DNA from: Periplaneta americana
Taxonomy: Eukaryota; Arthropoda; Insecta; Blattodea; Blattidae
Length of the DNA stretch: 64,000 nt
Assembly: GCF_040183065.1 (NCBI RefSeq)
Contig: NC_091124.1
Location: 69,449,001-69,513,000 of the forward strand
Direction: 5' to 3'
Below the pieces are notes generated by a model. The model was given only the letters and a program-made list of their open reading frames with translations, was not told the origin of the DNA and ran no database searches. Positions 8,893-45,660 of the stretch are shown here, piece by piece (position 1 is the stretch's first letter; each line of letters begins with the position of its first letter). The position numbers were made by a program, and so were the translations under genes.

Positions 8893-8899
8893 AAAAAAC

Positions 8900-19031: not shown

Positions 19032-19179
19032 ATATGGGCGGGTTGGCTGCCAAGTGGTGTACGTCCAAACTGCTATGTTTTCAGGGGAGCAAATTTAAAG
19101 TTTGCAATTCACTATAAATTCAGAATTGTATATGTCTTGGGTAAATAATGGCTTGGCAATAAGTGGAACATACATACTT

Positions 19180-19717
19180 TCAATTAGATGTTATAAATCT
19201 ATCTTGCAACTGTTTTAACTACCTCAAAAGTGAACTTTTCAAAGTGATGATCTCGAAAAAAATAATAGCGTTCCCCTAAATGAAACAAAAATAAATTGAG
19301 AAAGGAAATGTGATTGAATAAAAGTTGAAAGCCTATTCAAAAACAGAACTGTTGTTTATTGTTAAGAAACACAAACAAAAATGAACATTGAAAAGAACAA
19401 AATGAAAATTCATAAGATATCATCTGATATCATGATTTCGTCAACTTATCAATTAGATGTTATAAATCTATCTTGCAACTGTTTTAACTACCTCAAAAGT
19501 GAACTTTTCAAAGTGATGATCTCGAAAAAAATAATAGCGTTCCCCTAAATGAAACAAAAATAAATTGAGAAAGGAAATGTGATTGAATAAAAGTTGAAAG
19601 CCTATTCAAAAACAGAACTGTTGTTTATTGTTAAGAAACACAAACAAAAATGAACATTGAAAAGAACAAAATGAAAATTCATAAGATATCATCTGATATC
19701 ATGATTTCGTCAACTTA
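19180..19717. repeat. perfect 269-bp tandem duplication
   Basis: Positions 19180-19448 repeat immediately at 19449-19717 with no difference that I can see. It is either a very recent duplication or an assembly artefact. Confidence 0.9.
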
Positions 19718-19738
19718 TTCGTCCTCATCGGAAACAGT

Positions 19739-21070
19739 TCAAGGATCAGAATTTAAGCCAAGAAAAAAAGAATGGTGACAAGGGGGTATAAACTGCAATA
19801 GATCCCTTATATCTTTTTTCTTTGCTTTTGTGACGAACCTTCCATCAGGGTAAGTCGTTTGAAGTTGATGCCGAGTCAGGCACATTGACGGTTGCCCAGT
19901 TCTGTCACGACCTTTTCTCAAGTCAAGGCCTTCGAACTCAACTATTTCGTTCAGATTTTCTTTATAAAGGATAAAGGTTCCATGCACCTTACTGTACTTG
20001 ATATGACGCATTTTCAGCCAGTTGCTTTCATTTCCAGCCAGATTTTGTTTTCTCTTCGTGACACTGTTGAAGACCTTTGATTGTCAGAAAATCTTGACGT
20101 TGCCTCTCATGAACTACAAACTTATTGGTATCACGTTGTACCAATCTTTTGGTACATAAATGGTTTTATTTTTACTGGCAGTTTCAACACACCAAAAATG
20201 ACCATCGTTGGAAAGGTATGAATGTCTCGAAATCAAAAATTTTTGTTCAAAGGTTTCGATGTCATTGTCCTGGACAGAACATTACGCAGAAGTGTGAGGG
20301 CTACATTCAAATTTCGATTCTGTCCAGAACAAGAATCGGACTAAATCACAATATGCTTTATAGCTAGTTTAGAAGACAATATTTCTTGAAGTGAATAAGC
20401 AAGGATGAGGCAATCTCCAGGGAGCCCCCAGCTACAATAGCTTCATCCCAACAATAGAAATATCCCGTTTTACTTTTCATATCATTAATGCCAAAGTTAT
20501 AGACGTATAGGTTTCTTTTGTAGTAAGCATCACTGACTGTCAGTATTGGGAATGGAAGGGCCTTCTGTATATCCATGGATATCACGTACATTTCAGTATT
20601 AGGATTGGAAGAATCACGCTTCATACATTTATGGGCTCTCTCAGCTTTCCTTAAATGTAGTCCATGGGTTGTCTCCTATGTTGCTTTTTTTCCACTGTGA
20701 GATTTGTATCCATTTTCCTGATTTTGTAAGAGACACAATTTTTACAAGTATATTTTTATATTTTCTCGGTTTTTGTAAGTGTAAGTTGAATTGTGTATTA
20801 AAAATGTTACGATAGTAACTTTCTTTTACAAACTCCCTATTTCCCTTAAGGCATGCTTCTTTGTACAAATCATACATCTTCCGAATGTTCAGAAGAAGAC
20901 TCAAGTACTTCCTGTTTACATTATCATTTCGGGTGTAGTGCGATTCACTAACAGGAAAACTGTTTATATGCTCTTCAATGAAAGCTATTTTATCTGGGTC
21001 TGTCTTACGTGGATTAGGCTTGCGCCCTCTCAAGTCCTACCAGGAGGTTTGCCTTCTCTATAGTTTTTCA
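19739..21070 (-). pseudogene. transposase of DNA transposon 1, decayed
   Basis: Three minus-strand pieces in order. The N-part (21033-20641) reads RGRKPNPRKT, INSFPVSESHY, YLSLLLNIRKMYDLY and YYRNIFNTQFNLHLQKPRK. The middle (20624-20364) has MDIQKALPFPIL, AYYKRNLYVYNFGINDM and WDEAIVAGGSLEIAS. The C-part (20011-19739) ends DIRDLLQFIPPCHHSFF. Together they follow a family common in arthropod genomes as 'uncharacterised protein': Arg-rich linker, ESHY block, YKRQLW-like block, an SDxCxGQN catalytic-looking motif (only CPGQ survives, near 20270), then a DLLQ.IPP end. A frameshift just upstream of RGRKPN and several stops break it. Position inside inverted repeats supports a transposase role. Confidence 0.7.
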
Positions 21071-21610
21071 AAGCTCGCGACAGTCTCCTATCACTCACTT
21101 GTTTCACATACAGACTACGTTATTTACAGTCGTGAGCAACTTGCACTTAATATGAATGGTTCATATACAGGCTACGTTATTTTATTCTTGAACAACGCTT
21201 ACCTAATAATAAGAATGTTTGGAACACAACAGAGTAAACAATGTCCACAGGCGGCGACAGCACAGAATCTGTGTGCTGATAACATTGGCAGGAGCACTTG
21301 GACGTACACCACTTGACTGCCAAGGCGCTCAGTAATTTCGTTCAGTGTAACAACATTCTGCGCTATTTTGTGAGTGAACTATTGAACTTGGACACACAAA
21401 CTTGTCGGATACACAGAACTGGATGTCTAGTAACTATAAATGGTGTTGGTTCATTTTTCAATTTTTGTGACTTACACCACTTGGCAGCCAACCCACCCAT
21501 ATGTTTTGACCATTGAAACCTTAGACGATATTGCACTCACATAAAAAGGTTTAATAAAGCTATGTATTTAATTTTAAAATAATTTATTTTGTGACTATCT
21601 TGCGGGACGA

Positions 21611-21659
21611 ATGGCGGAAGGCAGTAGAGCAGCTGCGGGCAGTAAAGTGCTTCTTATTG
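21611..21659 (+). CDS. possible orphan first exon
   Basis: A GC-rich island in AT-rich DNA encodes MAEGSRAAAGSKVLLI and stops at a canonical donor (ATTG/GTAAGG). The ending 'SKVLLIG' resembles the beginning of a nucleotide-binding fold (E1-like or small GTPase). I found no following exon in the window, so the gene would need very long introns or this is chance. Confidence 0.3.
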
Positions 21660-22134
21660 GTAAGGCTGTAAATACGATGTTATTGAATTTTATATACAGA
21701 GTAAGTATTATGATAATGTTAAGATTAACTCTTGAGTTAATAGCATGCATGCATAGTAATGTAAGAGAAGCTTAAAAAATTATAACTTTGCTTTATATTT
21801 ACCAGGTCAATGAAATAGCAAGTTTCGCATATATACCAAATCTTACAATCTTTGGAAATGATCCGCGAAAATACAAACTTGTTTTTAAGAGTGTAAACTC
21901 TATGCTATTTTTGCGTTTTCTCTGTTTCGGCTTCAGTTCACCTCTTCAGCTAGGGAAAAGTGTGACGACAAAAATCTGTCGATCACTACCCTAGGACAGA
22001 GTGGAGAAGGAAAGATCTCTAACGAGAAATTCCAAGTTGTATGAAAAATGTTTATTGGGAACATTGATTCTGTGATGATTAAGAAATTGTCTTTACGAGA
22101 GGAAAGAAAAAATAAAGATACTATTGTTGGCTGC
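21660..22134. other. no gene recognised
   Basis: AT-rich spacer between two DNA transposons with no supported feature beyond the candidate donor at its left edge. Confidence 0.4.
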
Positions 22135-22739
22135 GATCAAAACTTCGTAACTCCAAAATTGAAAATTTTACAGGAGAAAGAAATAATATTACTGTGACTA
22201 GGTTTTTAAAGCAAAATCGATGCTGTTTTGAATTTAGCAACCGAAATATTATACATTAAATTAAATGTACGATATTAATATACACTGTAAATAATATACA
22301 TTTGTGTGTGGTGGAGTTACGAGTTCTTGTTACTATTTAGAACTTTGAATTTAGGTGATTTTTACTAAATGAACACACTTCTTTCGAATACTTTATGTTC
22401 TTTTAATTAATACGTCACCCAAACATCGCAAGATGAAGATTACATTTGTAAACTCAATAGTTGTTCACAACTTTATGCGATGCCAAATTAGTAAGTGACT
22501 ACACTTTAAGTGGAATAAAGGCATTTATATATTTTATGACAAATTTATAGATGATAATACAAAAATGAGTACAAATTTTAGAGATAACCATTATACAAAA
22601 TTAAAAAAAAAAAAAAAAAATTAACACAAACGAAGACAACTTTCAATTTTATTTTTCCCAATTATATAAATATTTGTTATTTGTTGTGTTGAGATTTGTA
22701 CAAAATTAAATACTTCCCACTAAATTGTAAGAAAGTGTC

Positions 22740-23844
22740 TGTTTAGGTTTTGCAGGCAGTCATGAGGCAGGGAGTCGTAGAATACATGAAAATCATAGGG
22801 CATAATTTTATTATTTGCTGCAAGTAGGTGAGATGACTCTCAATTTTAATTTTGGGAGGATTTGTATAAAGCTGTGGTACAGACACATTTTCTCTGTTCT
22901 TTGACATCCTTTTGGGACGAATGCTCTATGCATAATTGAACAGTTGGATTTCCTGGTATTGAAATAAGTCGAATAGAGAAGTGCCACGAAACTTTGCTAT
23001 GTGCTTTGAAGAAGTCATGGTGAAGATATTACATGATATATGGCTAATTTTTTGTCTGGCAGTTTTACATGCTTCAACATACATTGCAAGTATGTAAATT
23101 TGCCAGTTGCTTAATTTTCTTTATATTGTAGAGTGAACAGAATCACACTCCATTTGAGTGTAACCTCTCTCAAGAAACTCCTGAACAATTACCATGTTTT
23201 TTTTCATGGTTAAGATGATTAAAACATTTCCTAAAATATTATTTCTATTTTGGTAAGTGCATCCATCACTATACAAAATTACTTCATCTTGAGGTACTTC
23301 TGTTTCAATAAACTTTACAATTATACTGGCAAATTAATCAGAATTTAGTATTTAGTATAACTTCAGCCTCATGCCATTGATAACAAAATACATCCTTTCA
23401 TTGTAAATCAAATTGTGTAAAGTTATGCAGTTTTACTTTCGTCGTTATAGTACAGAGCTGAGACATGGAGAGATGGGGATAGAAGTACAGCCTGCAAGTC
23501 AATAGTCAGTACTCTAGTAGACGTACTCCCATTCATTTTTTGTCTTCTTCCTTAGACTTTCTTGCTTCATCATTCCTAAGAATATGATACCGGTATTGAT
23601 ATTTTTCATCATCAATATTTCCTGCATCACGAGAGCAGTACAAATCACAGTGTTCTTTTTTTTTTTTAGGTGAAAATAGACTTAAATTTTGTTCCTTAAA
23701 CGCATCCACAAATATATTTATTGAGATCTGTGATTTTGTTTTCTGTACTGCATGTCTCATGTTCACTGTAGAGGACAGCTTTACATCGCCAATAGGTTCA
23801 AGATATATTTTACTGAAAGTAGATTGGCAATAATAGAACTCCAA
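22740..23844 (-). pseudogene. transposase of DNA transposon 2, C-terminal part
   Basis: From 23844 down the minus strand reads NLSLFSPKKKKEHCDLYC, YRYHILRNDEARKSKEEDKK, then (near 23290-23120) VKFIETEVPQDEVILYSDGC directly followed by TYQNRNN, and further RGYTQMECDSVHSTI. The order (PKK.xCxxC block, HI.RN.EAR helix, YSDGCTYQNRN, MECDSVHSTIE-like motif) matches the family in transposons 1 and 4. The Asp of SDGC and the Asp/His of ECDSVH are plausible catalytic residues of an RNase H-fold transposase (inference). An in-frame stop follows HSTI, and further stops make it inactive. Confidence 0.72.
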
Positions 23845-23964
23845 TTTTGGTAGCTCAAAAAAAAATGAGTATTCATTCTTAAGTCGTTACTCTTTTGACT
23901 ATTTACAGTTTCTTTGTTCTGATGGGTAGATTTAGATTTAGGTCCCATTTCTTACAGACCATTT

Positions 23965-24990
23965 CCATATGGAAAATGTGTTAAGGAACAAGGTTTTGCA
24001 GACTTCCTGTCTTTTACCGTCAACACATTCCAATCTTCAACACAGGAAATTCTCTTCAAAATATGTGACTGGTTCTCAGTCAATAAATTAGTATTAAATT
24101 GTAGCAAAACTAACATAATTCAATTTAAATCCTGTCCAAAATCAACCTCGCAAGTTTCTAGCGCAATAATTAACAATAGATCCCTATTAGAAACAACAAC
24201 AACAACCAAATTTCTTGGCTTAAAAATCGATAATGTGTTAAATTGGAAAAATCATATTAAAGAAATTACCCCCAAACTAAACTCAGCATGTTTTGCTATT
24301 AGATCTATGCAAAAGATAGTAAATATCAATACCTTAAAAACAATATACTTTGCATACTTTCACTCGGTAATGAGCTTTGGAATAATATTTTGGGGAAATT
24401 CCACAGATAGTAACATAGTAACAGTATATTCCTATTACAAAAAAGAGTAATAAAATAGTAGGTGCCAAATCTAGGGAATCTTGTAGGACTATTTTCAAAA
24501 AACTACAAATAATGCCCATGGCTTGTCAGTATATCTTTTCATTAATAATCTTCCTCTTATGTAATCGTGAAAACTTTGTAACTAATTTAACAGTTCATAG
24601 CATTAATACACGTCAAAAAATTACTTTCATACTCCATCGGCAAGTCTATCGTGCTATCAAAAAGGAGTGCGTTATATGGCAGTAAAAATTTTTAATAGCC
24701 TCCCTATCGATATAAAAAATTAAACTCAAAACATAAGATTATTTAGGGCCAAATTAAAGAAGTACCTAATTTCTCACGCCTTCTATTCTGTAGGTGAATT
24801 CATGACATTCAATAATGCTTCATGAAATTGATACTAAAACTTTGTGTTGTACTAGTAGACTACATTGCAAATCTCTTCTGTATATATTTCATCTAGACTG
24901 TGACTATAAATTAAGACTTTATAATAGTATTAAGTTTTTTGACTTGTTCCATATTCTAGCTGTAAAGCAATGTATGAATACCATGGAATG
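23965..24990 (+). mobile_element. LINE fragment (CR1/Jockey-like RT C-terminus)
   Basis: The plus strand encodes SVNKLVLNCSKTNIIQFK, TKFLGLKIDNVLNWKNHI, LNSACFAIRSMQKI and YFAYFHSVMSFGIIFWGNS: the region after the catalytic box in CR1/Kiri/Jockey-type LINEs. Several stops follow. It continues through KKLQIMPMACQYIFSLII-like sequence to a tail with AATACA repeats. It sits inside DNA transposon 2. Confidence 0.75.
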
Positions 24991-25079
24991 TTAATAAATA
25001 CAATACAATACCGGTACAATGAAAAATAATTGTGCATAGAATAAAATTGATTTGATTATTCTGAATCTCCCCTTCGACG

Positions 25080-25793
25080 CTGGACTGGGATATAAATCTA
25101 GAAGTCTAATTACAAAATGTTTTTTCCTCCCATGACAGATTATTCCAGAAATTTTCGAAAAATTGCCTTTTGCTGATTTTCTTAAATTATTTCACAAAAC
25201 CTGCTTTTTTGCATTAAGTACATGAATATTTCTTTCCGCCTTATATCTCCATTTTCCTGCCTCATCTTTCGCCAGTTTCATGTAATCTAGTCCTTTCATT
25301 CGTTGTTTCTTGTTGACTGTCACTTTCCACTTATCACCTTTCTTAGTCGCATCCTGATTTCTTGTATATTTAGTTCTGCCGCTTTATTGCTAATAGTAAA
25401 TGAAAAAAAATATAGTTTCAGTACATTTCAACAAACCATAACAAAATAATATATACCAATGCAGCAAGAATTTATTTCAAGTGACACTCACTTCGTCCAA
25501 GTTTATCTTCCCTCCATTTGCGTTTTCTGATTCACCTTCGCTCGAAATGGTATTATTTTTGGCACATAGTTTTCATCACAATTATCGTCAGTGGATTCCT
25601 CTTCACTGCTGTAAGTCATATCAACCTTGGTATTATTCCTGAGTTGAACGGAGGTATTGCATATTAAGATGCTTGTAACAGGATTTTTTGCAATATCTCC
25701 ATTGAGTGCAGACACACTTTCTGAAGTATTGTGTTCTGTACCGGTAACACCGAAGTTTGCAATGGAACCATAATAACGGAGTTTTATATTCAT
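25080..25793 (-). pseudogene. transposase of DNA transposon 2, N-terminal part
   Basis: The minus frame from 25793 gives an acidic stretch (SSEEESTDDNCDENYVPK). After a putative intron (GTGAGT near 25495 to TTTACTATTAG near 25387) come GRTKYTRNQDATKKGDKWKV and NKKQRMKGLDYMKLAKDEAG. The acidic patch followed by a basic 'GR.R.NxDxWK..NK.QR.KGLxY' block is how this transposase family begins. Stops and frame changes show that it is dead. Intron boundaries are tentative. Confidence 0.5.
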
Positions 25794-26120
25794 CTTGTTC
25801 TAAATAAAAAGAAAGTAATTAATTAAAGAAATTATTTATTTATTCATTCATTTATTATTTATTTGTATTTTAATAAAAATGTAATTTCAGTTTCTATTAT
25901 TACACCACCTTAAAGTACCAATCTGAAATAACTTCGAAATTTTGCGTATTATTTCCATACAGTGCAGGCACAATTTCTGAATTATTGTGTTCTGTAACCT
26001 CAAATTTTGCAGCAGAACCATAATTATTCTCATACTGATCATTAGAGAATATAATATTTTAACGTTAACGTAACATCAGTCACAGTGACTTGTATGTCAG
26101 ATTGTCTGCCAATTGTCAAT

Positions 26121-26305
26121 CAGCATGGTAATTAAAACCTTGTAATTTCCAACCTAATGGACTTCCGGGCTTTTGAGTCTGAGATTAAGAGCAATGAAAA
26201 CCTCGTAATTCTAGTCTGCTGGAGATCCGAGGTTTTGAATCTCAGATTAAGAGCAATGAAAACCTCGTGATTCCAGTCTGCTGGAGATCCGAGGTTTTGA
26301 GTCTG
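26121..26305. repeat. 62-bp tandem repeats with hairpin potential
   Basis: About 2.7 units, each with AAAACCTCGTAATTC and, about 20 bases later, GATCCGAGGTTTTGA. The two parts are mutually complementary and resemble the transposon end motif. Confidence 0.8.
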
Positions 26306-26644
26306 ATATTAAAGGCTAAGGAGATATGAAGTTTTTGTAAAAGGTTAATTTGTGGCTTCTGTAAGACTTGGAGTTACAAGGCTTTAATAGATCATGAGCA
26401 TGTTATTTGTTGCCAGATAATGGGAAGAAAAAAACGATTTTACTTGTAAATGGAGTTACGAGGTTTTGATTTCCGACTGACGCTATGATACTTATGTCGT
26501 AGTAATATATCAGAACTCTTTTCAAAAAGTATAGAGACGCTAATAGATCTCGTCATTCAAAGGAATGCTTATTTTGCCTACCCGAAAAATATTTTGTTGA
26601 GTATGTTAACCGATGAGAGAAAACATTTGAGTATGGTAGCCTAG

Positions 26645-27574
26645 TTGCACAGACGGCCAAGTCCATTTTTTCGAAAGTGGGGAGTTAAGAGTTATTCTTA
26701 TGGAAATTTATACGTGGAATCCAAATTTGCTACTATTTTCTGTCAAAAGCGTTCGGAAATGTGTTAAATTACACTTTAAAAACAAACCTTCGTTACAAAG
26801 ACGGCCCCCTCCTAAGTGTATGTATGACAATAGCCGCCAACTCCATGCGAAACCAATCAGAGGCTTGAATTAGGTCATGTGACTGAGCAGGTGGTTGTGG
26901 GAGATGGGAGAGTGTGTTAACCATACTAATTCTAAGGTGTTAATAACATTGATTCCTTTTTGTTCTGTGCAACAATGTTGAAAAGCAATAACTTTACTTT
27001 CAAACTATCAGTGAATTTCTGCAGTGTTTTTTATAAATTGTAATGTGAAATTACTTTCTATTAAATGTATGTTTATAACATTGATTTCTTTTATTCTGTG
27101 TAACAATATTGTAATGCAATAACTTTACTTCCAAAGAGTCAGTGAATTTCTCCAGTGTTTTCTACTTATTATGTTGGAATTTTTTCAAATCAGTTTCATG
27201 TGGTTGCTCTAATATAATGTACTTTTCTTAAAATAAATAGATTTCAGTTTATTCTTAAAGAGATAAAAGATATTGAAATTTTTAAATCACTCTGTTTCCC
27301 TATTCAAACACATGGATTGTGTTGTCATTTATTTTACAAAAACAGCCACCTCCCATTCCTATTCTTTGTTACAAAGCTGGCCAAGTCCATTATTATTTTT
27401 TAATTATCTCATTATATATGGAAGAAGAAATATTTAAATTAAGCAAATTATTTATTCTAAGTTGCCAACATATTGTAGAAAAAAATTCAACTTTCTGAGT
27501 TGGCTTAAACAAACTAAAACAGTTTTTGGCCTATACTGAAAATTTTTGACAAATGGACATGGCCATCTTTGTAA
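26645..27574. mobile_element. DNA transposon 3, non-autonomous, CTAG target duplication
   Basis: Left end TTGCACAGACGGCCAAGTCC and right end (inverted) TTACAAAGATGGCCATGTCC are flanked by CTAG at 26641-26644 and 27575-27578. The 'GTTACAAAGACGGCC' motif recurs near 26790, 26830, 27340 and 27370. A diverged ~130-bp duplication (26939-27045 and 27071-27175) fills the middle. There is no ORF of note. Confidence 0.72.
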
Positions 27575-27578
27575 CTAG

Positions 27579-28711
27579 GTTACTCATATGAGGACTAGGA
27601 CTGCGACATATCCTTAAATCCTGAAAAGAGAAAAAAAAAAATTATACAAGACAATTCCAAATTCCACCAATTAATTTCACAGCTATGGACTACAGTAACA
27701 TGATTGATTAGCAGAAAACTGAAATAACCGAACCTCCTATTTTAAAATATATTTTTAATGAAGGTTTGTAGTTGTTTAGTGAGCAACAACCAACAACAGT
27801 GGTACAATTCTCAAGATTTCTCTGCCACACACAATTGGTGGAATGATGTGTGTGAAATTAATAATAGAAGCTAGAATGTCTGTTTTAGGATCTGACGCAA
27901 GAGATGGTTTCATCTGAGCCAGAATCAAATCCAGACAGTATCTGCCAAGTTTTGAAACTAAATAAAATTTTCAAGTACTTTGAAGGTTTGGGTTGCTGTA
28001 GTTCGTCCAATTTAGAATGTTTTTGTGTTAATGTAAATTAAATGCAATAAAATGTATTTTAAAAAAATCATTTGTGCTTATTCAGGTGAGTCTAAACTAG
28101 CATGAACTATCAGTGTTGCATGCTAAGCCGGGAAAAATATGTAAATGGAAGGTGACAGCATTTAAACGATAACTCAAAACATATTTAAGATAATATCTTA
28201 ATGAAATTTTGTATGCATATAAAGTTCTGTCATATGAACAACATAGGCTGCAGTAAAATATTTAAGGTAGAATTTGGGTAGAATGAATAGTTTTTTTTTT
28301 TTTTTTTAAAGAAATTAGTATAAAATAAAAAAAAAATATAAAAAATATTTTGAAAACTAACACCTAACACGTTAGAGATTTTACTGTATGTTGTAGACAT
28401 GTTTATTAAAAATAGATCAAATGAAGAATTACGTCAAAATTAAAATATTTGAGTAATTTATCATTGAAACGCTGCCTGGCTGGAAAAAAATTTAAAAAAT
28501 GTTTCATAGCCTATTTATTAGGTTTTCAAAAACATTACAATTATTTATTGATGTACAGACAGTGTATTTCAAGCATGCCAATTTTTGTTTTCAGAGAATA
28601 TATAGATTCCGAGAAAAAAAAAAGTTGAAATATAGTAAAATGATAGTGAACTCCCTCCTTAAGTAAAGGTTTGGGAGTTGTTTTCTATTCTCACTGGAAG
28701 AAAGGTAATTC
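27579..28711. other. no gene recognised
   Basis: Very AT-rich DNA with poly-A and poly-T runs and no supportable exon. Confidence 0.5.
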
Positions 28712-30071: not shown

Positions 30072-30093
30072 TCTTCTAACTTCAAATACTTAT

Positions 30094-30806
30094 TAAAACT
30101 CTAATATCAGTTTCTGTGTTCCAGCTTCGAGACACACGTAATACAATTTTATTGAATTGGAAATGTTTACACAATCATTTGAAATTCCCACGTCGTCATC
30201 GATATATATTCATTCCTTGCAACAATTCTTTAACCATGTCTCTTATCAGAGTCTTACTGAACACACATCACATTGATGCTCGTTCGAGTTATTATCGATA
30301 CCGTTATACTTCAACCACCGCCGTTGTTAACAACGAGACGCTAGGCGAAGGGATCCAGACGGCGGTGACTTCAACATTGTATTGTGATTGTATGTTACCA
30401 GCCATCTGTTGGGAGAATGTCAAGACTACAAGTGCATACAATGGCAAATTTATATTTCAAACTTACAAATATGTCACTTACATTTGAATTGACATCAGAA
30501 TTTAATATAGAATATGAATACATTTACAACAACTAGAATAAACGTGAACTTTACACAAATTATCTTAAACATCTGCAATGTTATATTTATATAAAAGGTG
30601 GAATATTGTGCAAGCTATATTATATAGATAGGTGAATTTTTCATAACAACATAACTTCCGCTATACGGAATTGCCATACACGCTTCAATTGTCTTCTTTC
30701 TACTTGGGGGTTGAGTAACTGCCTCGCATACCATAATCAGAAAATAATCAGTGGAGCGACTTTATCTTCTAAACCAAATTGGCTGATAAAACGGCCTTTG
30801 TGTCCG
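30094..30806 (+). promoter_or_regulatory. UBA1-B 5' flank
   Basis: Intergenic DNA before UBA1-B. The E1 reading frame is open upstream to 30711, but that stretch begins at TTG and lacks E1 similarity. It is 5' UTR or promoter. I cannot place the transcription start. Confidence 0.4.
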
Positions 30807-33800
30807 ATGTCTAGTGCTGAAGTGGTGGACAATTCCGTTGATCCTCCAGCCAAGAAGCGGAAACTTGCTACAGGAGACTCCACTGCAGCGAAATCCGTTT
30901 CACAGGCTATTTCAGACATGGCGCAGAATGGATCATCGCATTCTAACGAAGAGATCGACGAAGGGTTGTATTCAAGGCAATTGTATGTGTTGGGTCATGA
31001 TGCTATGCGTCGGATGGCAACATCAGATGTTCTTATTTCTGGGCTTGGAGGACTAGGAGTGGAAGTGGCAAAAAATGTGATTTTAGGTGGTGTAAAATCG
31101 GTGACACTGCATGACGAAGCCGTATGCAAGGTCGCAGATTTGACATCTCAATTCTACCTTACAGAATCAGACATCGGCAAGAATAGAGCTGAAGCTTGTT
31201 TGCCGCAGTTATCGGAGTTAAACACGTATGTACCTACAAAATCTTTCACTGATCGACTTACGGATGACTTCATAAAACAGTTCAGAGTAGTAGTACTGAC
31301 AAACAGTACCCTAGAAGAGCAGTTGAGAATTGCAGAAATAACTCATGAAAATGATATAGCTCTCATTATTGCAGATACCAGGGGTTTGTTCGCCCAAATA
31401 TTTTGTGATTTTGGAAATGATTTCACTGTTGTTGATACCACTGGGGAAAGTCCTGTTTCTGCAATGATAGCAAGTATTTCACAGGAAGCAGATGGTGTAG
31501 TAACTTGTCTAGATGATACACGTCATGGGTTAGAAGATGGAGACTATGTGACCTTCTCAGAAGTTCTTGGTATGACCGAATTAAATGGTTGTGAACCAAA
31601 AAAGATTCATGTATTGGGTCCGTATACGTTTAGCATCGGTGACACAAGTGGATATTCTGAGTACATACGGGGTGGAATCGTTACACAGGTGAAGATGCCT
31701 AAAGTTGTACATTTCAAATCCCTTAAAGAATCTCTTAAAGAACCTGAATTTATATGCACAGATTTCAGCAAGTTTGATAGACTCTCACAGTTACATTTGG
31801 CGTACATTACCTTACACAAGTTCATTGAACAAAGTGGGGAAGCTCCCAAACCCTGGAACCAAGAAGATGCAGATGCCTTTGTTTCTCTTGCTAAAACAAC
31901 AAGTTTGTCTGGTGGAAATGACGAAGAGCTCAATAATGAATTATTGGAAACGTTTTCCAAAATTTCAGCTGGTGATGTGCCTCCAATCAACGCTACAATT
32001 GGAGGAATTGTGGCGCAAGAAGTCATGAAGGCCTGCAGTGGTAAGTTCAGTCCAATATACCAATGGCTCTACTTTGATGCACTAGAATGCCTTCCGTCTG
32101 ATGTGTCTGTGATCACGGAAGAGAGTTGCAAAGCTTCGGGAACTCGCTATGATGGCCAGGTAGCTGTATTCGGGAGTGCATTCCAACAACGTCTTGGCTC
32201 ACTGAAATACTTCGTGGTTGGAGCCGGTGCTATTGGTTGTGAGCTGCTGAAGAATTTTGCAATGATGGGAGTTGGAGCTTCGGAAGAAGGACAGGTAACT
32301 ATTACCGACATGGATCTGATAGAGAAATCAAATTTGAATCGACAGTTCCTCTTCCGTCCTTCAGACGTTCAGAGACCGAAATCTGTATGTGCTGCAAAAG
32401 CAGTAAGACGCATGAATCCTGCAATCAATGTTATTGCGCATGAGAATCGTGTAGGCCAGGAGACAGAGAGAGTTTATGATGATACTTTCTTTGAAAATCT
32501 AGATGGGGTAGCTAATGCTCTAGATAATGTGGATGCTCGCATCTACATGGATCGGCGTTGTGTGTACTACAGGAAACCTCTACTTGAATCTGGCACTCTG
32601 GGCACAAAAGGAAACACGCAGGTTGTAGTGCCTTTCCTCACTGAATCATATAGTTCCTCCCAGGATCCTCCTGAAAAAAGTATTCCAATCTGTACTTTGA
32701 AAAATTTTCCAAATGCTATTGAGCATACTTTGCAGTGGGCCCGGGACAGCTTTGAAGGCTTATTCCGTCAGGCAGCAGAGAATGCAGCGCAGTACTTGGC
32801 AGATCCGGCATTTGTGGAGCGTACACTGAAGTTACCTGGTGTTCAGCCACTGGAAGTCTTGGAATCCGTGAAACATGCTCTTGTGGATCATCGTCCAAAT
32901 TCATTTGAAGATTGTGTTGCTTGGGCACGATGTTACTGGCAGGAGCAGTACAATGACCAGATTCGACAGCTGCTGTTCAACTTCCCTCCAGATCAGCTAA
33001 CATCGAGTGGCCAGCCTTTCTGGTCAGGACCAAAGCGTTGTCCTACACCACTGGTATTTTCTGTGGATGACCCGTTGCACATAGATTATATTCTTGCAGC
33101 TGCAAACCTGAAGGGTGAAGTGTATGGAATTCCACAGAATCGGGATAGAGAAGAAATTGCAAGAATGGTACAAGATGTTGTTGTTCCCGAATTCATTCCA
33201 AAATCTGGAGTGAAGATTGCAGTAACAGATTCTCAAGTGCAAGTTTCGAATGGTGCAGGAAATGTTGATCATGATCGCATCAATCAATTGCAAAAGGAGC
33301 TACCTTCCAGGGAGGAATTGAAGGGACTGGTAATCACACCATTAGAATTCGAGAAGGATGACGACACTAATCTGCATATGGACTTTATTGTTGCCTCTTC
33401 CAATCTCCGTGCTGCCAACTACAATATTCCTCCTGCAGATCGCCACAAGAGCAAGCTTATCGCAGGCAAGATCATCCCTGCCATTGCCACCACGACTTCG
33501 GTAGTCGCGGGTCTTGTGTGTCTTGAACTGTACAAACTCGCACAAGGATTTAAGACATTGGAGCCCTACAAGAATGGCTTCGTCAACTTAGCATTACCTT
33601 TCCTCGGCTTCTCTGAACCCATTGCTGCACCCAAGATGAAGTATTATGACGAAGAGTGGACACTTTGGGATCGTTTCGAAGTGTCTGGAGAGTTAACGCT
33701 TCGAGAGTTCCTGGATTACTTCAAAGAGAAGTTCAACCTAGAGATCACCATGCTGTCACAAGGTGTGTGCATGCTGTACTCGTTCTTCATGGCCAAGCCC

Positions 33801-33968
33801 AAGTGTGTGGAGCGGATGAGTCTGCCCATGTCTGAAGTAGTGAAGAAGGTCTCCAAGAAAAAACTGGAACCCCACGTTAGGGCCCTGGTGTTCGAGCTGT
33901 GCTGTAACGATAATGATGGAAATGATGTCGAGGTTCCTTACGTTCGCTACACACTTCCTGATAATTAA
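30807..33968 (+). CDS. UBA1: ubiquitin-activating enzyme E1, canonical intronless copy (UBA1-B)
   Basis: Encodes 1053 residues from the ATG at 30807 ([10 protein letters not shown]), close to the ~1058 of vertebrate UBA1. The open frame extends upstream to 30711 but only through a TTG. The N-terminus has a basic, NLS-like PPAKKRK at residues 13-19, then [15 protein letters not shown] (residue 50), the first cysteine half-domain ([11 protein letters not shown]), the active adenylation domain with GAGAIGCE (from 472), [10 protein letters not shown] and ALDNVDAR, the catalytic Cys629 in [11 protein letters not shown], and the ubiquitin-fold domain ending [11 protein letters not shown]. All motifs are canonical, so this is probably the main cellular E1. 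Same strand as UBA1-A, 14.3 kb downstream of it, with only mobile DNA recognised between them. No intron interrupts the ORF; a 5' UTR intron cannot be excluded. Confidence 0.96.
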
Positions 33969-36573: not shown

Positions 36574-37074
36574 TCTCAGGATTAATGGGAATTTCCTACA
36601 TTTTCATATAAGAGGCTGTGAAGTTGTTGAAACCATATATAAAATTACTGTGGTGCAGTAAGTTAAACTGGGCAATCCATTATTTGGGAGTAGATTTTGT
36701 GAATGGATTTTGAGTAAAGTGCATGATTGAGAAATTGATCATAATCTCATTTTGTTTTCAGACGAAGCTTGGTTCCACTTAACATGGATATGTTAGCATG
36801 CAAAACAAAGATACTGGAGTTCGAAAAATCTAATCTGCTCTATGAGGAACCCGTTCATGACCAAAAAATTGGAGTGTGATGTGCACTTAATGGTAACAGC
36901 ATAGTAGGCCCAATTTTTTTAAAGGAACAATAGTGATAAATATGCAAAACATTTTGCAGCCCTTTCATGCTGAATTAACTATGTGCGAACGCAGTTTCAC
37001 TTCTTTCCAGCAGTATTTGACAGTAGTAGTGTCATCACTAACAACATATTATGGCTCTTCTTGATCCTGCAGTT
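36574..37074. other. no gene recognised
   Basis: Unassigned sequence without a supported feature. Confidence 0.4.
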
Positions 37075-37077
37075 ATT

Positions 37078-37374
37078 GGCTGCGTTCAGCTGGGACAGCA
37101 CTGAACGCCTTGCTGGCCAACAGCGCTGAAATAGCGGGCACAATTTTTCGTAGCAAAATTTTTTTTTTTGCTGCAAGCCTGCTGCTAGCCAGCGAAAGTG
37201 GAGGGGGTAGGCAACAACCAATGGTATCATATATTCTGGAGTAGGCGAAACAATAGCAGCGTGTTTCTTTGTAAACACAGCGGACATTTTGCAATGGTCG
37301 TTCAGGACCTCACAGCTGCTGTAACTCTGCAAAAATGAATAGCTGAATTAGCGCTGTCCCGGCTGAATGCAGCC
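37078..37374. mobile_element. MITE, PIF/Harbinger-like
   Basis: Ends GGCTGCGTTCAGCTGGGACA (left) and, inverted, GGCTGCATTCAGCCGGGACA (right). ATT on both sides gives a 3-bp duplication (37075-37077 and 37375-37377). The 297-bp interior has no transposase. Confidence 0.7.
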
Positions 37375-37739
37375 ATTGTCTTAGGGGAATATTAAAAGAA
37401 AATATACAGACCAAAACACACAGCTTAGACGAACTAAAGAATAGCATCTGTTGAAAGATTAATTCAATATCTCAGAGAGAACTGATAAATGAAAAGTATT
37501 TTGTTAGACAGTCACTCCAGTACTGCAAGTCTGACCGCAAAATCTTATTGCCAGCCAGCCTGGAGCATATCCATCATGGCCTTGAAATTTATGCTGCACT
37601 CACATTTCACAGATAATTGCTCATTGAATATTTATAATTACCACAATCTCTATCATATGATGAAGCTGGTGGCTCCTTAGAAAAGAATGGAAATACAGAA
37701 TATACTGGTACTTACGTCGATGTTTGGGTTGATTACGTG

Positions 37740-37905
37740 GTATGATTTTTTTTGGAGATTTTTCCCAACTATAAGGCGACTGTTAGGTGATCAACAATAA
37801 TATTCTTGGTGTCATTTTGCCAAATATATTGTCACCAATTCCACTGGCACTAGATAACCTCGCAGTTGATACGGTATTGTTTAATAACAGATACTTAAGT
37901 CAACA
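37740..37905 (+). repeat. diverged SINE body and tail
   Basis: Ends CACTAGATAACCTCGCAG, TTGATACGGTATTGTTTAAT, matching the shared SINE 3' end. The head is not recognisable. Confidence 0.5.
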
Positions 37906-38392
37906 AAGAGAAAGCAAAACATTAAATTCACTTCACAATCATCAAAACATATACCCCTAGAATAATATTGACGTTAACTCCCGAAAATTGAATTTTGAGT
38001 TGCAGGCAGTTTTGTAATCTTTATTTAACCCTCTATCAATCAGTAGAACTGTCGTATCTCTAAGTTGAAGTGCAGAGTCTGCAGGACTCATACTGATACT
38101 TGGTAATCCTGATTTTCATACGACTTTGAAATGTTTATCTTGCATTTACTCAAAACTAACTTTTGATAGTTAGGACAGTATCAATTTAAGAGTACGATAT
38201 GTGCACTTTGGTTGTCTTAGGTATGAATAACTAACTCTGCTTCCAGCTTAAGGAAATAATGAACACAAAATTCAACTCTATCTTGTCTATGAATCTGATA
38301 GGTGAATTTAATGTAATTTTAACACAAAACCTGTGAAAGTAATTCAGAACAAAATTTCACCAGCAATGAGTTGTAGATGTATCTAAAACTGA

Positions 38393-38506
38393 TTGAATCG
38401 AAAAGATTGCCTGTGAGCATGTGGGTAGAAAAGTAAACTTTCACATGAATTGAATCGAAAAGACTGCCTGTGAGCATGTGGGTAGAAAAGTAAACTTTCA
38501 CATGAC
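38393..38506. repeat. 57-bp tandem duplication
   Basis: Two copies of TTGAATCGAAAAGATTGCCT plus 37 bases (38393-38449 and 38450-38506), nearly identical. Confidence 0.9.
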
Positions 38507-38522
38507 TGTTAAAAAGTGGGGA

Positions 38523-39359
38523 GAAGATAGATTCCATTTGGATGCCCAATTAATGATATTATTTACAGCTGTTTGTATAACTCTTAATGATTTGTTTCGA
38601 TCTTTGTTCGTAGCCCATACTGCATAAATACTTATTTTTACCTCAGGTGGAACAACATCAGATAAGTCATGTAACATTATATTAAATAAATTTGGGCTTA
38701 AAACAACCTTGAGGTATATCACCTGTAATTTTTTTGGATAAAGATAAATGATTATTTACTGAGGTTTGAATTGTTCGTTCATTAAGAAACAAATGTAGAA
38801 ATCTTAGCATTCTGCCTTTGATACCAAGTTTCATAGATTGTAATAAAATGGATCTGTGTGGAGTATTATCAAAAGTGGCTTCAAAGTCTATCATTACAGC
38901 TAATGTGGTCTTATTTTCTGTGAAACCTTTATAAATTTCTTGAGCAAAATATAATAGAGCTTCAGTTGTGCCACATGATGGCCTAAAGCCAAACTGATAT
39001 GGGCTTAAAAGATTGAAAGTTTCAAGTCTCCAGGTTAATCTTCTGTGAACAATGCGTTCCAGTAATTTAGAAATGCAGGATGTTAAAGATATCTGTCTAT
39101 ATGATTTAGGGTCCAATTTGTCTTTACCTGGTTTGAGAATAGGAATTACAATTGCATTTTACCAGTTGCACAAGACACAGCCCTGCAGTATATATTGACT
39201 ACACCCCACCTTTGGCTACTAGCAACAGGCATCTATAATGAACAATCAAAATATCCCTCATTTCTCGTGAAAAACAACTGAATAGACTATAGTGGACTTT
39301 ATGTTGTCAGCAAAAAGCTGGATACATTAAGAAGATTGATTGATTGATTGATTGATTGA
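38523..39359 (+). mobile_element. RNase H-type LINE, 5' inverted insertion
   Basis: TTAAAAAGTGGGGA flanks both ends (38509-38522 and 39360-39373). The left ~630 bp are minus-oriented reverse transcriptase: SYRQISLTSCISKLLERIV, LSPYQFGFRPSCGTTEAL, IDFEATFDNTPH, DIPQG, then LSPNLFNIMLHDL. The right ~205 bp are the plus-oriented 3' end (TSFLVKNN-like, then a GATT tail) shared with 17135-18740. The region that should hold the YADD box reads ISIYAVWATNK, so the catalytic pair is deleted. The frame also shifts after DIPQG. Confidence 0.85.
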
Positions 39360-39373
39360 TTAAAAAGTGGGGA

Positions 39374-40204
39374 ATCATTCATGTAAAATGTTGATATATA
39401 CAATATTCCTCTAAGTAACATTTCTCCATTAGAATGCCTCATGACTAGTGTTTAGAATTGCATGCACTAAGGACCCTAAAATATGTAGGCCTTCTAAAAA
39501 CTAAAGAACTGGCAAACTTACCATAGTATAGAATCCCACGAAAAACAAAACATTAGCTACATAAGGAAAAAACATTCACCTAACATCTTATCGACTGTTG
39601 CTAATTTAATTAAAACCAATTTGATACAGACAATTCATTTTCTTTCATGACTACGAAATTTTCTGACATAATAATCTTTTCCATGTTTTTAGGATCCAAC
39701 TTGTTTCTCCTGTCCTTAAAAATAAACGTGTAGAAAAGTTCTTTCTACATCACATGAAGTAAGGGGACAAAACGTATAATCTGGTAACGCAATAGGATTA
39801 ATGTGCACATTGCTGTCATATCCTTGAAACACGTTGCTAATTTCCTTCATCTTCAGCCCATTCTTTACTGTATCTGAGATGCGTTTTCAAAACAAAATTT
39901 ATTTAGGACTCTTGATTTGACTTGTGGAATACATACAAACTACTGAAATTGGGGAGAAAACACTGTTTTTTAATTTGCACAAACCAAAATGGCAGACCAA
40001 CTCATTGAACATCACAACATCCTCTATATTAGAAACAATAAATCAAACATAGACCCCTGCCAACTATAATGTACACTAAAGTCTACCCAAACATTCACAC
40101 CTTAAAATCGTTAAAATGAAAAGTATTGCTTTCTGCTCAATTTTATTAAATTTACGTATTCACAAAGTCAAATCAAGGAGTTCTGAATAAATTTTGTTGA
40201 GAAG
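39374..40204. other. no gene recognised
   Basis: Unassigned AT-rich DNA. Confidence 0.45.
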
Positions 40205-40216
40205 ACTTGGCGTCAT

Positions 40217-40445
40217 GTCGACCTGGTTGGCAAGTTGGTATAGTGCTGGCCTTCTATCCCCAAGGTTGTGGGTTCGATCCCAGGCCAGGTCGATGGCATT
40301 TAAGTGTACTTAAATGCGACAGGCTCATGTCAGTAGATTTACTGGCATGTAAAAGAACTCCTGCGGGACAAAATTCCAGCACATCCGGCGATGCTGATAT
40401 AACCTCTGCAGTTGCGAGTGTCGTTAAATAAAACATAACATTTAT
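40217..40445 (+). repeat. tRNA-derived SINE with target duplication
   Basis: Flanked by ACTTGGCGTCAT (40205-40216 and 40446-40457). The head is TGGTTGGCAAGTTGGTATAG with B box GGGTTCGATCCCAGG. The body is TTAAGTGTACTTAAATGCGA and the end GCGAGTGTCGTTAAATAAAA. It is intact and probably the youngest copy of its family here. Confidence 0.9.
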
Positions 40446-40614
40446 ACTTGGCGTCATCCAAAGTAAATAATTATTACAAAGTCTAGAAAACAGTTTTTGC
40501 TGTGAAAAGAATGTATGAAAGATGTTAGTGTTGAAATATGTTCATAAATGTACGAACAACATGCATCTGTCATTAAATTAAATATGAAACATGTAATTAC
40601 TTACAAATAGCTTT

Positions 40615-41515
40615 TAGAGAACTCGGAGGTTCATTGCTGCCCTCATATAAGCCTGCCATTAGTCCCTATTCTGATTAATGTAACCCCTAGCATCATTCCA
40701 CCTCCCACAAATCCATTTTAATATTATCTTCCCATCTACACCTCGGCCTCCCCAAAGGTCTTTTTCCCTCCAGTCTTCCAACTAACACATTATGTGCATT
40801 TCTGGATTTGCTATATGCCCTGCCCATCTCAAATGTCTGGATTTGATGTTCGTAATTATGCCAGATGAATACAGTGCGTGCAGTTCTGCATTGTATAACT
40901 TTCTCCATTCTGTAATTTCATTCCTCTTAGCCCCAAATATTTTCCTAAACACCTTATTCTCAACACTCTTAATCTCTGTTCCTCTCTCAAAGTGAGAGAC
41001 CAAGTTTCATAACCATACAGAACAACCGGTAATATAATTTTTTTTATATATTCTAACTTTCAGGTTTTTTGAGAGCAGACTGGATGACAAAAGCTTCTCA
41101 ATCGAATAATAATGGGCATTTCCCAAATTTTAGTCTCCATTTAATTATCTCCCGAGTGTCATTATTTGTTACTCTGGCTCCAAGATATTTGAATTTTTCC
41201 ACCTCTTCAGAGGATAAATTTCCAATTTTTATATTTTCATTTCATACTATGTTCTGGTCACATGTAATCATATACTTTGTCTTTTCGGGAATTACTTCGA
41301 AACCTATCTCTTTACTTCAAGTAAAATTCCCTTGTTTTTCCTAATAGTTTGTGGATTTTCTCCTAACATATTCATGTCATCCGCATAGACAAGCAGCTGA
41401 TGTAACCTGTTCAATTCCAAACTCTGTGTTTTTCTGGACTTTCCTAATGGCATATTCTAAAGCAAAGTTAAAAAGCATTTCCTTGGTTTAGCCTGCAGTA
41501 AATTGGAAAATGACC
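40615..41515 (-). mobile_element. LINE 3' part including RT catalytic box, decayed
   Basis: On the minus strand the catalytic motif appears as QLLVYADDMNMLGENPQTIR (near 41400-41341), followed by MITCDQN, a VEKFKYLGARVTN-like stretch, ENKVFRKIFGAKRNEI, RHLRWAGHIA and GRLEGKRPLGRPRCRWEDN. It is the family of the 10482 and 29600 copies but longer and older, with small deletions and frameshifts. Confidence 0.8.
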
Positions 41516-42411
41516 CGACATGTAATTACTAAGTTTAATTAAAATATCCACCTCCAATACAAATACACATTTGCGTATATTTCTCATCACTACTCATGAT
41601 GTAGACAAACTTCACGGTCTAGCCTTGGGGTATGAACAAATTGAGGATGGAAGACTGGTTGGGAGAGTAGCAGGGAGTTTTGGTGGGGGAAATGAATCAC
41701 TAGATTCATATGACACCACACACATTGACTCATGGCTGGTTACTTTACTGCTCGCTTATCAGCAAGAGATAGGTAAGCTCCATGAATAACGTCCGTCATT
41801 CTTTCTGGCTTGTAGTGCAAGTCTCAGCTTGTTGGAGAGGTGATTGTGGGTGGTCCATGGACCAGTTGTCAGTGGCAACTTTTCTAATTGCTAGAGACGA
41901 CTTATATTAATTATTTGTAACTTACTGTAGCATTTGTTCTTTTTAATTTACATTAATTTGTGTTTTATTTTAGACTACATGCATTTGGTTAAGTCTTGAA
42001 GCATAACTCTGAAACCAGTAAAGATTAACTACATAAAGATTAATTTTTGGTCCTACAGAGTTTATCTGTTATGGTAACAAGGAGAAAAATTCGCTCTGGT
42101 GCTCAATTGAGTGTGCTCCTTTTATAATGGCAGTTCACTTAATACAGGGGTCATCAGCACAGAGCACGCTGGGGCTAGCTTCTCTTACCCGCGGAAAACA
42201 CAGTGCACTATAGTGCTCTCGTAGCTGCTAGCGGGTATGCTATCTCTCCCTGTTGTATGACAGTGCACATGGGATGGCACCGCGTATCCATTGCACATTT
42301 CAGTGAGTGCTGACGACCACTGACTTAGTGTATGTCGAACATGGAGTAAGGCCACAAAGAGAAGAACACTAGAGGAGGGGATTCGACCCGGTGCTGTGGA
42401 TTGAACTTTGG
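41516..42411. other. no gene recognised
   Basis: An open frame at 41571-41789 (GRVAGSFGGGNESLDSY) has no family resemblance that I can see. Otherwise unassigned. Confidence 0.4.
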
Positions 42412-42490
42412 TGTAGCTCAATGGTTAGAGCGCTTGGTATGTAGAACCAAGGACCCGGTTTCGATCCCCGGCACTGGGGCAAATTTTTCT
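42412..42490 (+). repeat. tRNA-like unit (SINE head or tRNA pseudogene)
   Basis: A box TAGCTCAATGGTTAGAGC, anticodon arm CTTGG/CCAAG, B box GGTTTCGATCCCC, then TTTTT. The anticodon would be GTA (Tyr), but the acceptor stem is held mostly by G-T pairs, the T stem has a mismatch, and no Tyr intron is present. It is therefore more likely a tRNA-derived repeat than a working gene. Confidence 0.5.
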
Positions 42491-42771
42491 CCTCTAATAA
42501 CAATGTAAAGATTAAACTTTTAAAAGTAATTTTCTTTCTTTCTCAACATTTCTCTTGTCTTGACTCCTCCTCATCTAACGTGAAAAACAAAAAATGTTCC
42601 CACTTACCAACTTTTGAAGGTGTAAAAAATGCCAATTTTTTTCTATGCTTCCCTTAGACACTGACCTATCAAAAAAATTAGAGCACAGCTGATCATATCT
42701 TTAAAACAAGATCTTTCAACACTAGAAAGTTGTCTCATCTGAGGTGCCAGATATCAAAATGGGCTATCTGA

Positions 42772-42807
<36 letters not shown>

Positions 42808-42935
42808 AATGAGTTATTGACGTCATTGGCAAGTTTGAGTTGAAGACTTTACACAGTGAAAGGTTCAGTTTCAAAATGGTTTATTTTGGACGTGTAAAAT
42901 GCATGGAGAAAATCAGTACAATAGATCAAAATGGG

Positions 42936-43248
42936 TCCGGCGTCGTGGTCTAAGGCATCCTGCCTAGGACTCGCGTTACGGAATGCGCGCTGGTTCGAGT
43001 CCTCATGGGGGAAAAAAGGTTCTCATGAAATTTCGGCTAGTATATGGGACTGGTGTCCACCCAGCATCGTGATGCACTTGGGAAGCTACAATAGGTAGTG
43101 AAATCTGGTTATGCAAACCAGCTATAACAGCTGGGGGGGCTCATCGTGCTAACCACATGATACCTCCATTCTAATTAGATGATCATCCACCTCTACTTCG
43201 GCATATGGCTGTGGTCGGCCTTGGCCCTTCGTGGACTGTAGCACCACA

Positions 43249-43308
<60 letters not shown>
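42936..43308 (+). repeat. tRNA-Leu-like SINE with (ATT)n tail
   Basis: TAGATCAAAATGGG flanks it (42922-42935 and 43309-43322). The head GCGTCGTGGTCTAAGGCATC has a long variable arm and B box CTGGTTCGAGTCCTC, like a class II (Leu/Ser) tRNA. The tail is about 20 ATT units. Confidence 0.9.
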
Positions 43309-43310
<2 letters not shown>

Positions 43311-43661
43311 GATCAAAATGGGATGTGCCACCTGTTATTTCAACAAAACAAAATGGGCTATATTTCATATTGTTACATTATATTTCCAGAGCGCACGAAA
43401 CAAAATGGTCTATGTTTGCCAAAGTTTCTGGCATATTTTTCAGAAAACTAACATGGTTGCGTCCTTAGTTATACATTAATTATACGTCTAGACTTCTCGT
43501 GTACGTTTGTATTTTCTATATATGTAAATATTATTACATGGTCTGTATTTTACTATATATTAATATTATTGTGCTGAATGAACAATCTTCAATTTTGTAT
43601 AACTAAACTGAACTGCGCCCGAGCACGAGGTTCTGCTCTTTCTGGCTGCAATGCCTAATGT

Positions 43662-43915
43662 GTTTTTTTAAGTAGGTTATTTTACGACGCTGTATCAATA
43701 TCTCAGGTTATTTAGCATCTGAATGAGGTGAAGGTGATAGTGCCAGTGAAATGAGTCCGGGATCCAGCACCAATAGTTACCTAGCATTTGCTCATATTGA
43801 GTTGAGGGAAAACCCCGAAAAACCTCAACCAGGTAACTTGCCCTGACCGGGATTCGAACCCGGGCCACTTGGTTTCGTGGCCAGATGCGCTAACCATTAC
43901 TCTACAGGTGTGGAC
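43662..43915 (-). repeat. tRNA-derived SINE, minus orientation
   Basis: CCTAATGT flanks it (43654-43661 and 43916-43923). Reversed, it gives a GTCCACACCTGTAGAGTAAT head, a GGGTTCGAATCCCGG B box, a GGTTGAGGTTTTTCGGGGTT body and the shared ACAGCGTCGTAAAATAACCT end. Confidence 0.9.
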
Positions 43916-44209
43916 CCTAATGTAGTGTAAACCTAGTGTATTAAATAAATAAATTTGTTCTAATTTATAAGACAAGGACTGTTTTGCTATGAAAAAATTG
44001 ATCAAAACTACTATGCTCCCAAGTTAAATTTGCGTCCTGTCAATGCAAGAGACGAGCCCTAGTAGCTCGTTGTTAGTATAAAACTTGCTGTTTCGTCTGT
44101 GAGTGAGGCCATGTTACAAGAGATAATGAAATGAGTGGGGGTAATGTATATAATGTGTGTAAGAAATACTGTGCATAATATTAATATTAGTAATGTTAAT
44201 TTATGAATT

Positions 44210-45250
44210 ATGATAATACTACGTCAGACAGAAGATTACAGGCTATGACTGCTCAACGTATTCATCTGCTGAAAGTGAAAAGTTTTTATGAAATCAAGAA
44301 TGAGATGTCTCCAGGCCTTCTCACTTTGATTGTAGCAGAATTTGACATTTCCACGTCTTCTTAATCAAGCAACATATTAAGCCAGGCAATATTACATGTA
44401 CAATGAAGCAGTAGTCGAGCAGAGCCAAGACAAAATGTTGAGACCAGATAGTATATTTTTTGTACACATGGTTAGAACATGAGGCTTCTAAAGGAAATGT
44501 TGAAGTTGCATCTGTTGTTCATCATAGACTGACATGTAATGATATGAATGGAACTGAGAAGATTCTTCTGGTCTCAGATGAATGAGAGACACAAAAATAC
44601 TATTATGATATCGATAATCTGTTGATGGTTCTACAATGAAGTTCCATCATCCCTGAAATATGACGGGGCCTATTCTCTGATATTGGACACAGTTTTCTAC
44701 CCTGTGACAGGGTATTCGGAAAAGTGGATAACCAAATAAAAAAGAAGAGGTAATTCTGTTACCAGAAGAATATCATATCACTGGGAAACATGCAACTGTA
44801 ATCAAGGTTGGCAATGAAGAATGTCCAATCAATAAGTGGAAGAAATTTACAAAAAACATGGTGAAATCGACCAGTGCCCTTCCATTCAAGATCTCAGAAG
44901 TTAAAAGTCTTTTTTTTCCATCTTATTTAAAGGAGAAGCAAGTTTACGCTTTTACAGCAATCAATATTTACCATATGGACTATGCAAATGAGGAAAGTGT
45001 TCCCATAGGGTATCAATACATCACTGGAACTATCAATCCATTAAGAATCATGCATGTAGAAGCATTATTATAGAAACATTTTGGATTGTTCTGGGAAGGA
45101 GAAGACCATACACAGATAAACCTGCAAATCCATATGACCGGAATGTGCCAGCAAACGAACAAGATAGAGAAGAAGATGCTGATGACCTTGACACATGCTT
45201 TTACCATCTTAAAGATCCCTGTGGACATGTTTGAAGAGTGTTTTTGTTAT
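44210..45250 (+). pseudogene. transposase of DNA transposon 4, decayed
   Basis: Plus-strand pieces in shifting frames read MTAQRIHLLKVKSFYEIK, AEFDISTSS, QATY and ARQYYMYNEAVVEQSQDKM (the 'YY.RQ..MYNF.VVE' block), VASVVHHRLTCNDMNGTEKI, NTIMISI, then GHSFLPCDRVFGKVDNQIKK and EEYHITGKHATVIKVG, INKWKKFTKNM and ALPFKISEVKSL. The hallmark GHSxLPxDRxFGxxE..I.K block and the WK..K end place it in the same broad family as transposons 1 and 2, in a separate branch. A frameshift after QIKKK and several stops inactivate it. Confidence 0.62.
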
Positions 45251-45660
45251 AGTTTTCGTAAAACCTTGCAATTATTCTAATAATTTACTAAAAGACTTCC
45301 AGTTCTTTATGTTGTTTTGTAACTATTTTGGGAATAGTGCTGTTAAAAAATAGAATAAAACTATTTTCAAATCTTTATTTTAACGAAATCATGTTCAAAA
45401 ACATAATTAGATCCAGTATATTGTAAAATTAGAGTAACGAGTTTCAAAATAAATTCATCAAAATGGGATAACAAAATTTAAATTTTCTTACAAAACAAAT
45501 ATTTGGACACTATGATTTGAATAAACATGGTAGGCATGTTTACTATTGACGTCTTTATTAATTAGAGCTATTACCACATTTGTATCTTTCTTGTATGAGA
45601 TATAGGATATTCTTGCACTTTTCTTAAAATTTATTTTCAATAACATAGCCCATTTTGATC

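Follow-up and report, generated by a model that had tools for sequence, protein, structure and literature searches.

The Pfam family DUF7869 (PF25273), whose entry gives no function and which is here placed in transposons, is very probably the DDE/D (Asp-Asp-Glu/Asp) transposase of cut-and-paste elements that make 4-bp target-site duplications (TSDs). The elements lie in a 64,000-nt stretch of Periplaneta americana DNA (the window; positions 69,449,001 to 69,513,000 of contig NC_091124.1, assembly GCF_040183065.1), which holds three decayed protein-bearing elements, E1 to E3, and a non-autonomous one, E4. Multi-copy elements with coincident inverted ends, recurring 4-bp TSDs, long open frames and a predicted RNase H-like core together support the assignment. 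The best explanation, in which we have high confidence, is that E1-E3 are decayed members of three cut-and-paste lineages with DUF7869 and its upstream region as the transposase. The original prediction had read this "uncharacterised" family in the same way; that reading stands, but of the four flank pairs offered for it only that of E1 survives, those of E2, E3 and E4 having been drawn from the wrong positions.

Inverted ends were found at all four predicted places. E1 (19036-21498, minus strand) is bounded by the terminal inverted repeat (TIR) GGGCGGGTTGGCTGCCAAGTGGTG, whose ends were read in 10 other copies, and by ATAT directly outside it (19032-19035 and 21499-21502); multi-copy alignment bears out both the predicted ends and the ATAT/ATAT flanks. 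The searches for copies covered the 3.23-Gb assembly of 91 contigs that contains the window. Identical 4-mers flank 8 of the 10 copies with both ends fetched (ATAT six times, AAAT, AATT); the copies L071/L072 and L079/L080 have unlike flanks. In the copy search, 31 of 71 rows (self included) extend to query position 1774-1779, where the query itself stops, so the edge is shown by the flanks. Seven further loci keep only query positions 3 to ~229 and 1418 to 1779, as in a non-autonomous derivative. E1 copies diverge by ~5-17%, and a tandem duplication of 269 bp within E1 (19180-19717) is 100% identical; set against that divergence, this points either to a duplication in recent time or to an error of assembly.

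E2 (minus strand) truly spans 22125-26482, and its copies have the TIR consensus CGTCGGYYGGCGATCAAAACC; relative to the predicted 22139-26467, the ends move outward by 14 and 15 bp. The GATC/GATT taken for its flanks falls inside the inverted repeat, and the element is flanked by a perfect, non-palindromic CTAT (22121-22124 and 26483-26486). Of 27 aligned loci, among them the window copy, 25 stay similar up to a tip like ...GCCAGCCGACG, 14 bp outside the earlier edge, and no farther; L010 and L038 diverge before the shared tip. For twenty copies the other end was added as well, and 19 of them are readable at both ends (L026 has no readable 5' end). Seventeen of these carry identical 4-mers (ATAT ten times, TTAT four times, GTAT, CATT and ATAA), L015 and L016 being the two that differ. 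L017, L018 and L022 have common flanks and hence arose by duplication, which brings the count of distinct TSDs to 15 of 17. A whole-E2 DNA query gave 40 scored matches, 39 of them (93-96% identical) to a nested, high-copy fragment resembling a long interspersed nuclear element (approximately 24021-25011, plus strand; repeat matches), and beyond itself matched nothing else.

In the E2 subfamily, an identical TAA breaks the second-Asp motif (SDECT*QNRN) in 22 of 24 copies. The count excludes the window copy, L010, which is more distantly related, and L032, where the stop is TAG. Median pairwise identity is 0.960 (range 0.927-0.998; 22 copies, with L010, L015 and L016 left out). The simplest reading is that a defective master was amplified in trans. 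At the right end of E2, three tandem 62-bp units (26147-26332) repeat TIR motifs of the AAAACCTCG type and are possible, candidate transposase binding sites.

E3 runs from 42741 to 45671 on the plus strand (TIR of copies GAGGCGCCCGAGATCAAAATGGGCTATGTC), 15 bp farther out at each end than the predicted 42756-45656. Here too the proposed flanks, TATC/GATC, belong to the inverted repeat, and the TSD is a perfect, non-palindromic ATCT (42737-42740 and 45672-45675). The right ends of the copies coincide at ...CGGGCGCCTC or near variants, 15 bp beyond the earlier edge. All 12 copies with both ends read (nine completed and three longer ones) have an exact 4-bp duplication, the 4-mers being ATAT, AATT, AAAT and AGTT. 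Two of the copies, L087 and L088, each hold a 586-aa open frame; they match E3 DNA at ~81% and are 98.9% identical to each other. The window copy has been invaded by an insertion resembling a short interspersed nuclear element (approximately 42936-43309, plus strand), placed by repeat and flank reading between two AGATCAAAATGGG, and by an interspersed repeat (approximately 43664-43916) with similar stretches at 46886-47136 and 8646-8898. ARAGORN reports a transfer RNA (tRNA)-Tyr (gta) at 42407-42480, a short way to the left of E3, either a gene or a tRNA-derived repeat.

As a control for the TSDs, the left flank of one copy was paired with the right flank of another, window copies being counted and, of the duplicated trio L017, L018 and L022, L017 alone being kept. 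Matches over 4 bp occur within 9 of 11 copies for E1, 16 of 18 for E2 and 13 of 13 for E3, against 5.0, 4.5 and 2.8 predicted from different-copy pairs. Within copies of E1-E3, flanks never matched over 3 or 5 bp; a single match over 6 bp lies in an AT repeat. Among 16 non-palindromic left flanks, 13 match directly and none as the reverse complement. E1, E2 and E3 thus show the two features of a cut-and-paste TIR transposon, copies that end together at inverted repeats and a fixed 4-bp TSD, which recurs across copies as predicted.

The protein common to these elements is present in the window as blocks in broken frames, on the minus strand in E1 and E2 and on the plus strand in E3. In E1, reading frames delimit an N-terminal piece (20641-21036; SFPVSESHY, NIRKMYDLY, FNLHLQKPRK), a first-Asp block ISMDIQKALPFP with YYKRNLYVYNF and GGSLEIASSLL (20364-20675; also tblastn and genome matches), a second-Asp block SDSCSGQNRN in another frame (20236-20340; also aligned to E2), a third block RHSYLSNDGHFWCVE, again in another frame (20117-20281), and a C-terminal piece (19739-20083). 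E2 retains an N-terminal piece (QNLSLFSPKK; 23533-23886), the first-Asp block LTIDLQAVLLSP in another frame (23444-23548; tblastn, alignment to E1), and, in one frame also supported by genome matches, the second-Asp block YSDGCTYQNRN with the third block QMECDSVHSTI (23121-23333). E3 retains the block WLEHEASKGNVEVAS with the region of an invariant Glu (44457-44537; alignment) and the third block GHSFLPCDRVFGKVD followed by a C-terminal piece, in two frames (44664-45073; frames and alignment).

Between E1 and E2, local scores are 58 for the first-Asp block (ISMDIQKALPFP / LTIDLQAVLLSP) and 48 for the second (SDSCSGQNRN / YSDGCTYQNRN), where shuffled pairs reach 45 at their 95% point and never exceed 49; the middle piece of E1 also matches the E2 frame 23548-23444 (tblastn, E 0.024). 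The predicted common protein is less clear for E3, which taken alone is at chance level: it scores 45 with E1 (shuffle 95% point 46), and its 35 with E2 does not reach the median of the shuffles, 37. Its family membership follows from the open-frame copies L087 and L088, whose proteins align with the family. On this evidence, the three decayed window proteins are true relatives.

Genome-wide protein-versus-DNA searches used 70 aa from E2 and 103 aa from E1; the best 150 of 1456 and the best 150 of 2595 candidates, respectively, scored as matches, and among the matches listed a number fall in open frames of 450-800 aa. Twenty open-frame rows (425-800 aa) form the alignment used below, A1. PF25273 matches 18 of its 20 frames at E <= 0.01 (best 1e-14). 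L087 (29.1) and L044 (28.9) exceed the curated cut-off of 26, and L040 (22.7) and L043 (18.9), of E2-type lineages, fall below it. The match appears only with these longer frames from the genome: the window fragments alone do not match PF25273, and against Pfam, PHROGs and NCBIfam they gave chance-level matches only. We found no relatives in viral contigs (5 queries), prokaryote genomes (1 query) or phages (1 query), and no open-licence text that calls DUF7869 a transposase, although that literature says little about Repbase.

Five acidic positions are strongly conserved in A1 (L087 protein numbering): D272 and E321 in 20/20 rows, D355 and D400 in 19/20 and E407 in 18/20. D272 and D355 are 75-82 residues apart, D355 and E407 47-51. 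A D-x-C-x2-C motif and a later His are invariant and could form a putative zinc site. The predicted structure has an RNase H-like core, as in DDE/D transposases, with the SDGC Asp directly after the fourth strand, in agreement with what had been expected of a structure prediction. Three conserved acids occupy the expected secondary structures: D272, D355 and, as candidate third catalytic acid, E407 or D400. The fold-comparison matches listed all concern one domain, model residues 135-431. Retroviral integrases and mariner transposases resemble the model at the level of fold only (8-12% identity in three rows), and the 75-82 residues between the first and second Asp are unlike the spacing in either. 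Mariner, moreover, makes a 2-bp TA duplication.

Further lineages have the same organization. L039-L042 contain frames of 589-800 aa, the TIR CGTCGTTAAGATAGC and TTAT or ATAT duplications in 4/4 as read, the right tip of L042 being altered. A scan of 21 further loci found TIR pairs in 11, seven of which have a 4-bp duplication as read (AATT in L139-L142, GTAT in L033 and L066, ATAT in L043); the duplication of L033 sits in a tandem repeat, L131 and L144 are not clearly readable, and L137 and L145 run off the end of the locus. L043 has nested inverted-repeat pairs (1514-5567 and 1612-5417) enclosing one 644-aa frame, with CGTC tips in both and ATAT beside each; it is either an element inserted near another's end or a composite. 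E4 (26629-27585), which is non-autonomous, follows the style of E1-E3; its GAG start resembles that of E3 and of the elements L139-L141. Since its TIR begins GAGTAGCCTAG, the CTAG/CTAG proposed to flank it at 26645-27574 is internal, and its flanks, ATTT/ATAT, are imperfect.

Several observations weigh against the transposase assignment. The structural model is of middling quality (predicted local distance difference test, pLDDT, 73.4; predicted template-modelling score, pTM, 0.57). With Foldseek alone, NurA was the single match to reach E <= 0.001, and it superposed poorly; a PDB search by sequence gave nothing convincing and no match to a solved transposase. The rows of A1 include several pairs or triplets of near-identical relatives and are not independent. 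Ratios of nonsynonymous to synonymous substitution (dN/dS) in eight close pairs are 0.45-1.20, with little sign of constraint; a ninth pair was not computable. The E1 flank excess is modest because ATAT is common, and few E1 flanks are non-palindromic (1/2 match). E4 copies have matching 4-mers in only 5 of 10 pairs, by eye, and two of these five matches need the first TIR bases to be taken as mutated. Ten of the 21 further loci have no TIR pair, and the AATT of L139-L142 is palindromic and could belong to the TIR.

If DUF7869 is the transposase, the upstream part with its conserved C-x2-C...H site, which may bind zinc, would help to hold the ends. The RNase H-like core with D272, D355 and E407 (or D400) would cut at the outer TIR tips and join the ends to an AT-rich target with a 4-base stagger, which would yield the 4-bp duplications. 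Relatives would move defective copies in trans. Lineages with a common transposase and stagger have unlike termini, CGTCG, GAGG and GGGCGGG.

A separate matter, compatible with this mechanism, is the name. By analogy, Sola is the most likely superfamily, and we think it reasonably probable that the elements are Sola in the Repbase sense, most like Sola2, with DUF7869 as the catalogued Sola transposase. Sola is described second-hand as having a DDD transposase, a 4-bp TSD and a size of mostly 2-9 kb (PMC10741241), and the 4-bp TSD is found here. Another account gives AT-rich AWWT duplications, e.g. ATAT and AAAT, for Sola2 chimeras in amoebae (PMC3627910), which E1 (ATAT, AAAT, AATT) and most E3 copies fit. 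From these descriptions, Sola and especially Sola2 resemble the present elements in their kilobase size, inverted ends and 4-bp AT-rich TSDs. However, the E2 lineage prefers NTAT (TTAT, GTAT, CTAT) to AWWT and also uses CATT and ATAA, E3 also has AGTT and ATCT, and a 4-bp TSD is not specific to Sola, since the IS481EU entry text gives "4 bp TSD". We regard it as rather unlikely that DUF7869 transposases make up a separate superfamily, one that the accepted classification of eukaryotic DNA transposon superfamilies lacks. The kind of element, a DDE/D transposon with a 4-bp TSD, is already known.

It is very doubtful that the DUF7869 protein is a passenger and another element protein the transposase. 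Transposons are known to carry passengers, as the account of Fanzor1 in several superfamilies shows (PMC3627910), but in L087, whose element measures 3.08 kb, no other open frame is longer than 113 aa, and the one of that length overlaps on the opposite strand. The DUF7869 protein is also the only one common to lineages with different TIRs, and its predicted core would supply the three conserved acids.

We give scarcely any weight to the idea that the duplications are chance matches, or that the copies spread inside larger repeats or segmental duplications. ATAT is palindromic and frequent in the flanks, and L017, L018 and L022 did arise by duplication; yet the flanks of other copies are unlike each other, and identity within copies exceeds that between copies, at 4 bp and neither 3 nor 5. 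Domesticated host genes lying beside inverted repeats by chance are just as hard to credit: long open frames exist and a few could be host genes, but near-identical dispersed copies are many and each is bounded by TIRs. With many scored matches, a number of them in 450-800-aa frames, single-copy host genes are not the main form of the family in this genome; had they been, that would have told against the prediction.

Elsewhere in the window, a UBA1-like ubiquitin-activating enzyme E1 gene is present as two single-frame copies (30636-33968 and 13446-16469). One has a 1110-aa open frame with full Pfam domains, and the second stretch shows 79% protein identity over ~1008 aligned residues; they are retrocopies or a duplicated intronless gene. 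A strong inverted-repeat pair ~1 kb apart (54095-55068; ATATACAGGGTGATTCACGA...) is probably an unrelated transposon.

With these results, a Pfam domain without a function gains a role that can be tested, along with the precise ends of its elements and named residues that are candidates for catalysis, and annotators could label such "uncharacterised proteins" as transposon rather than host genes. The near-identity of L087 and L088 suggests that their lineage may have been active recently enough for a test. Should the proteins turn out not to be related to Sola transposases, the classification would gain a superfamily.

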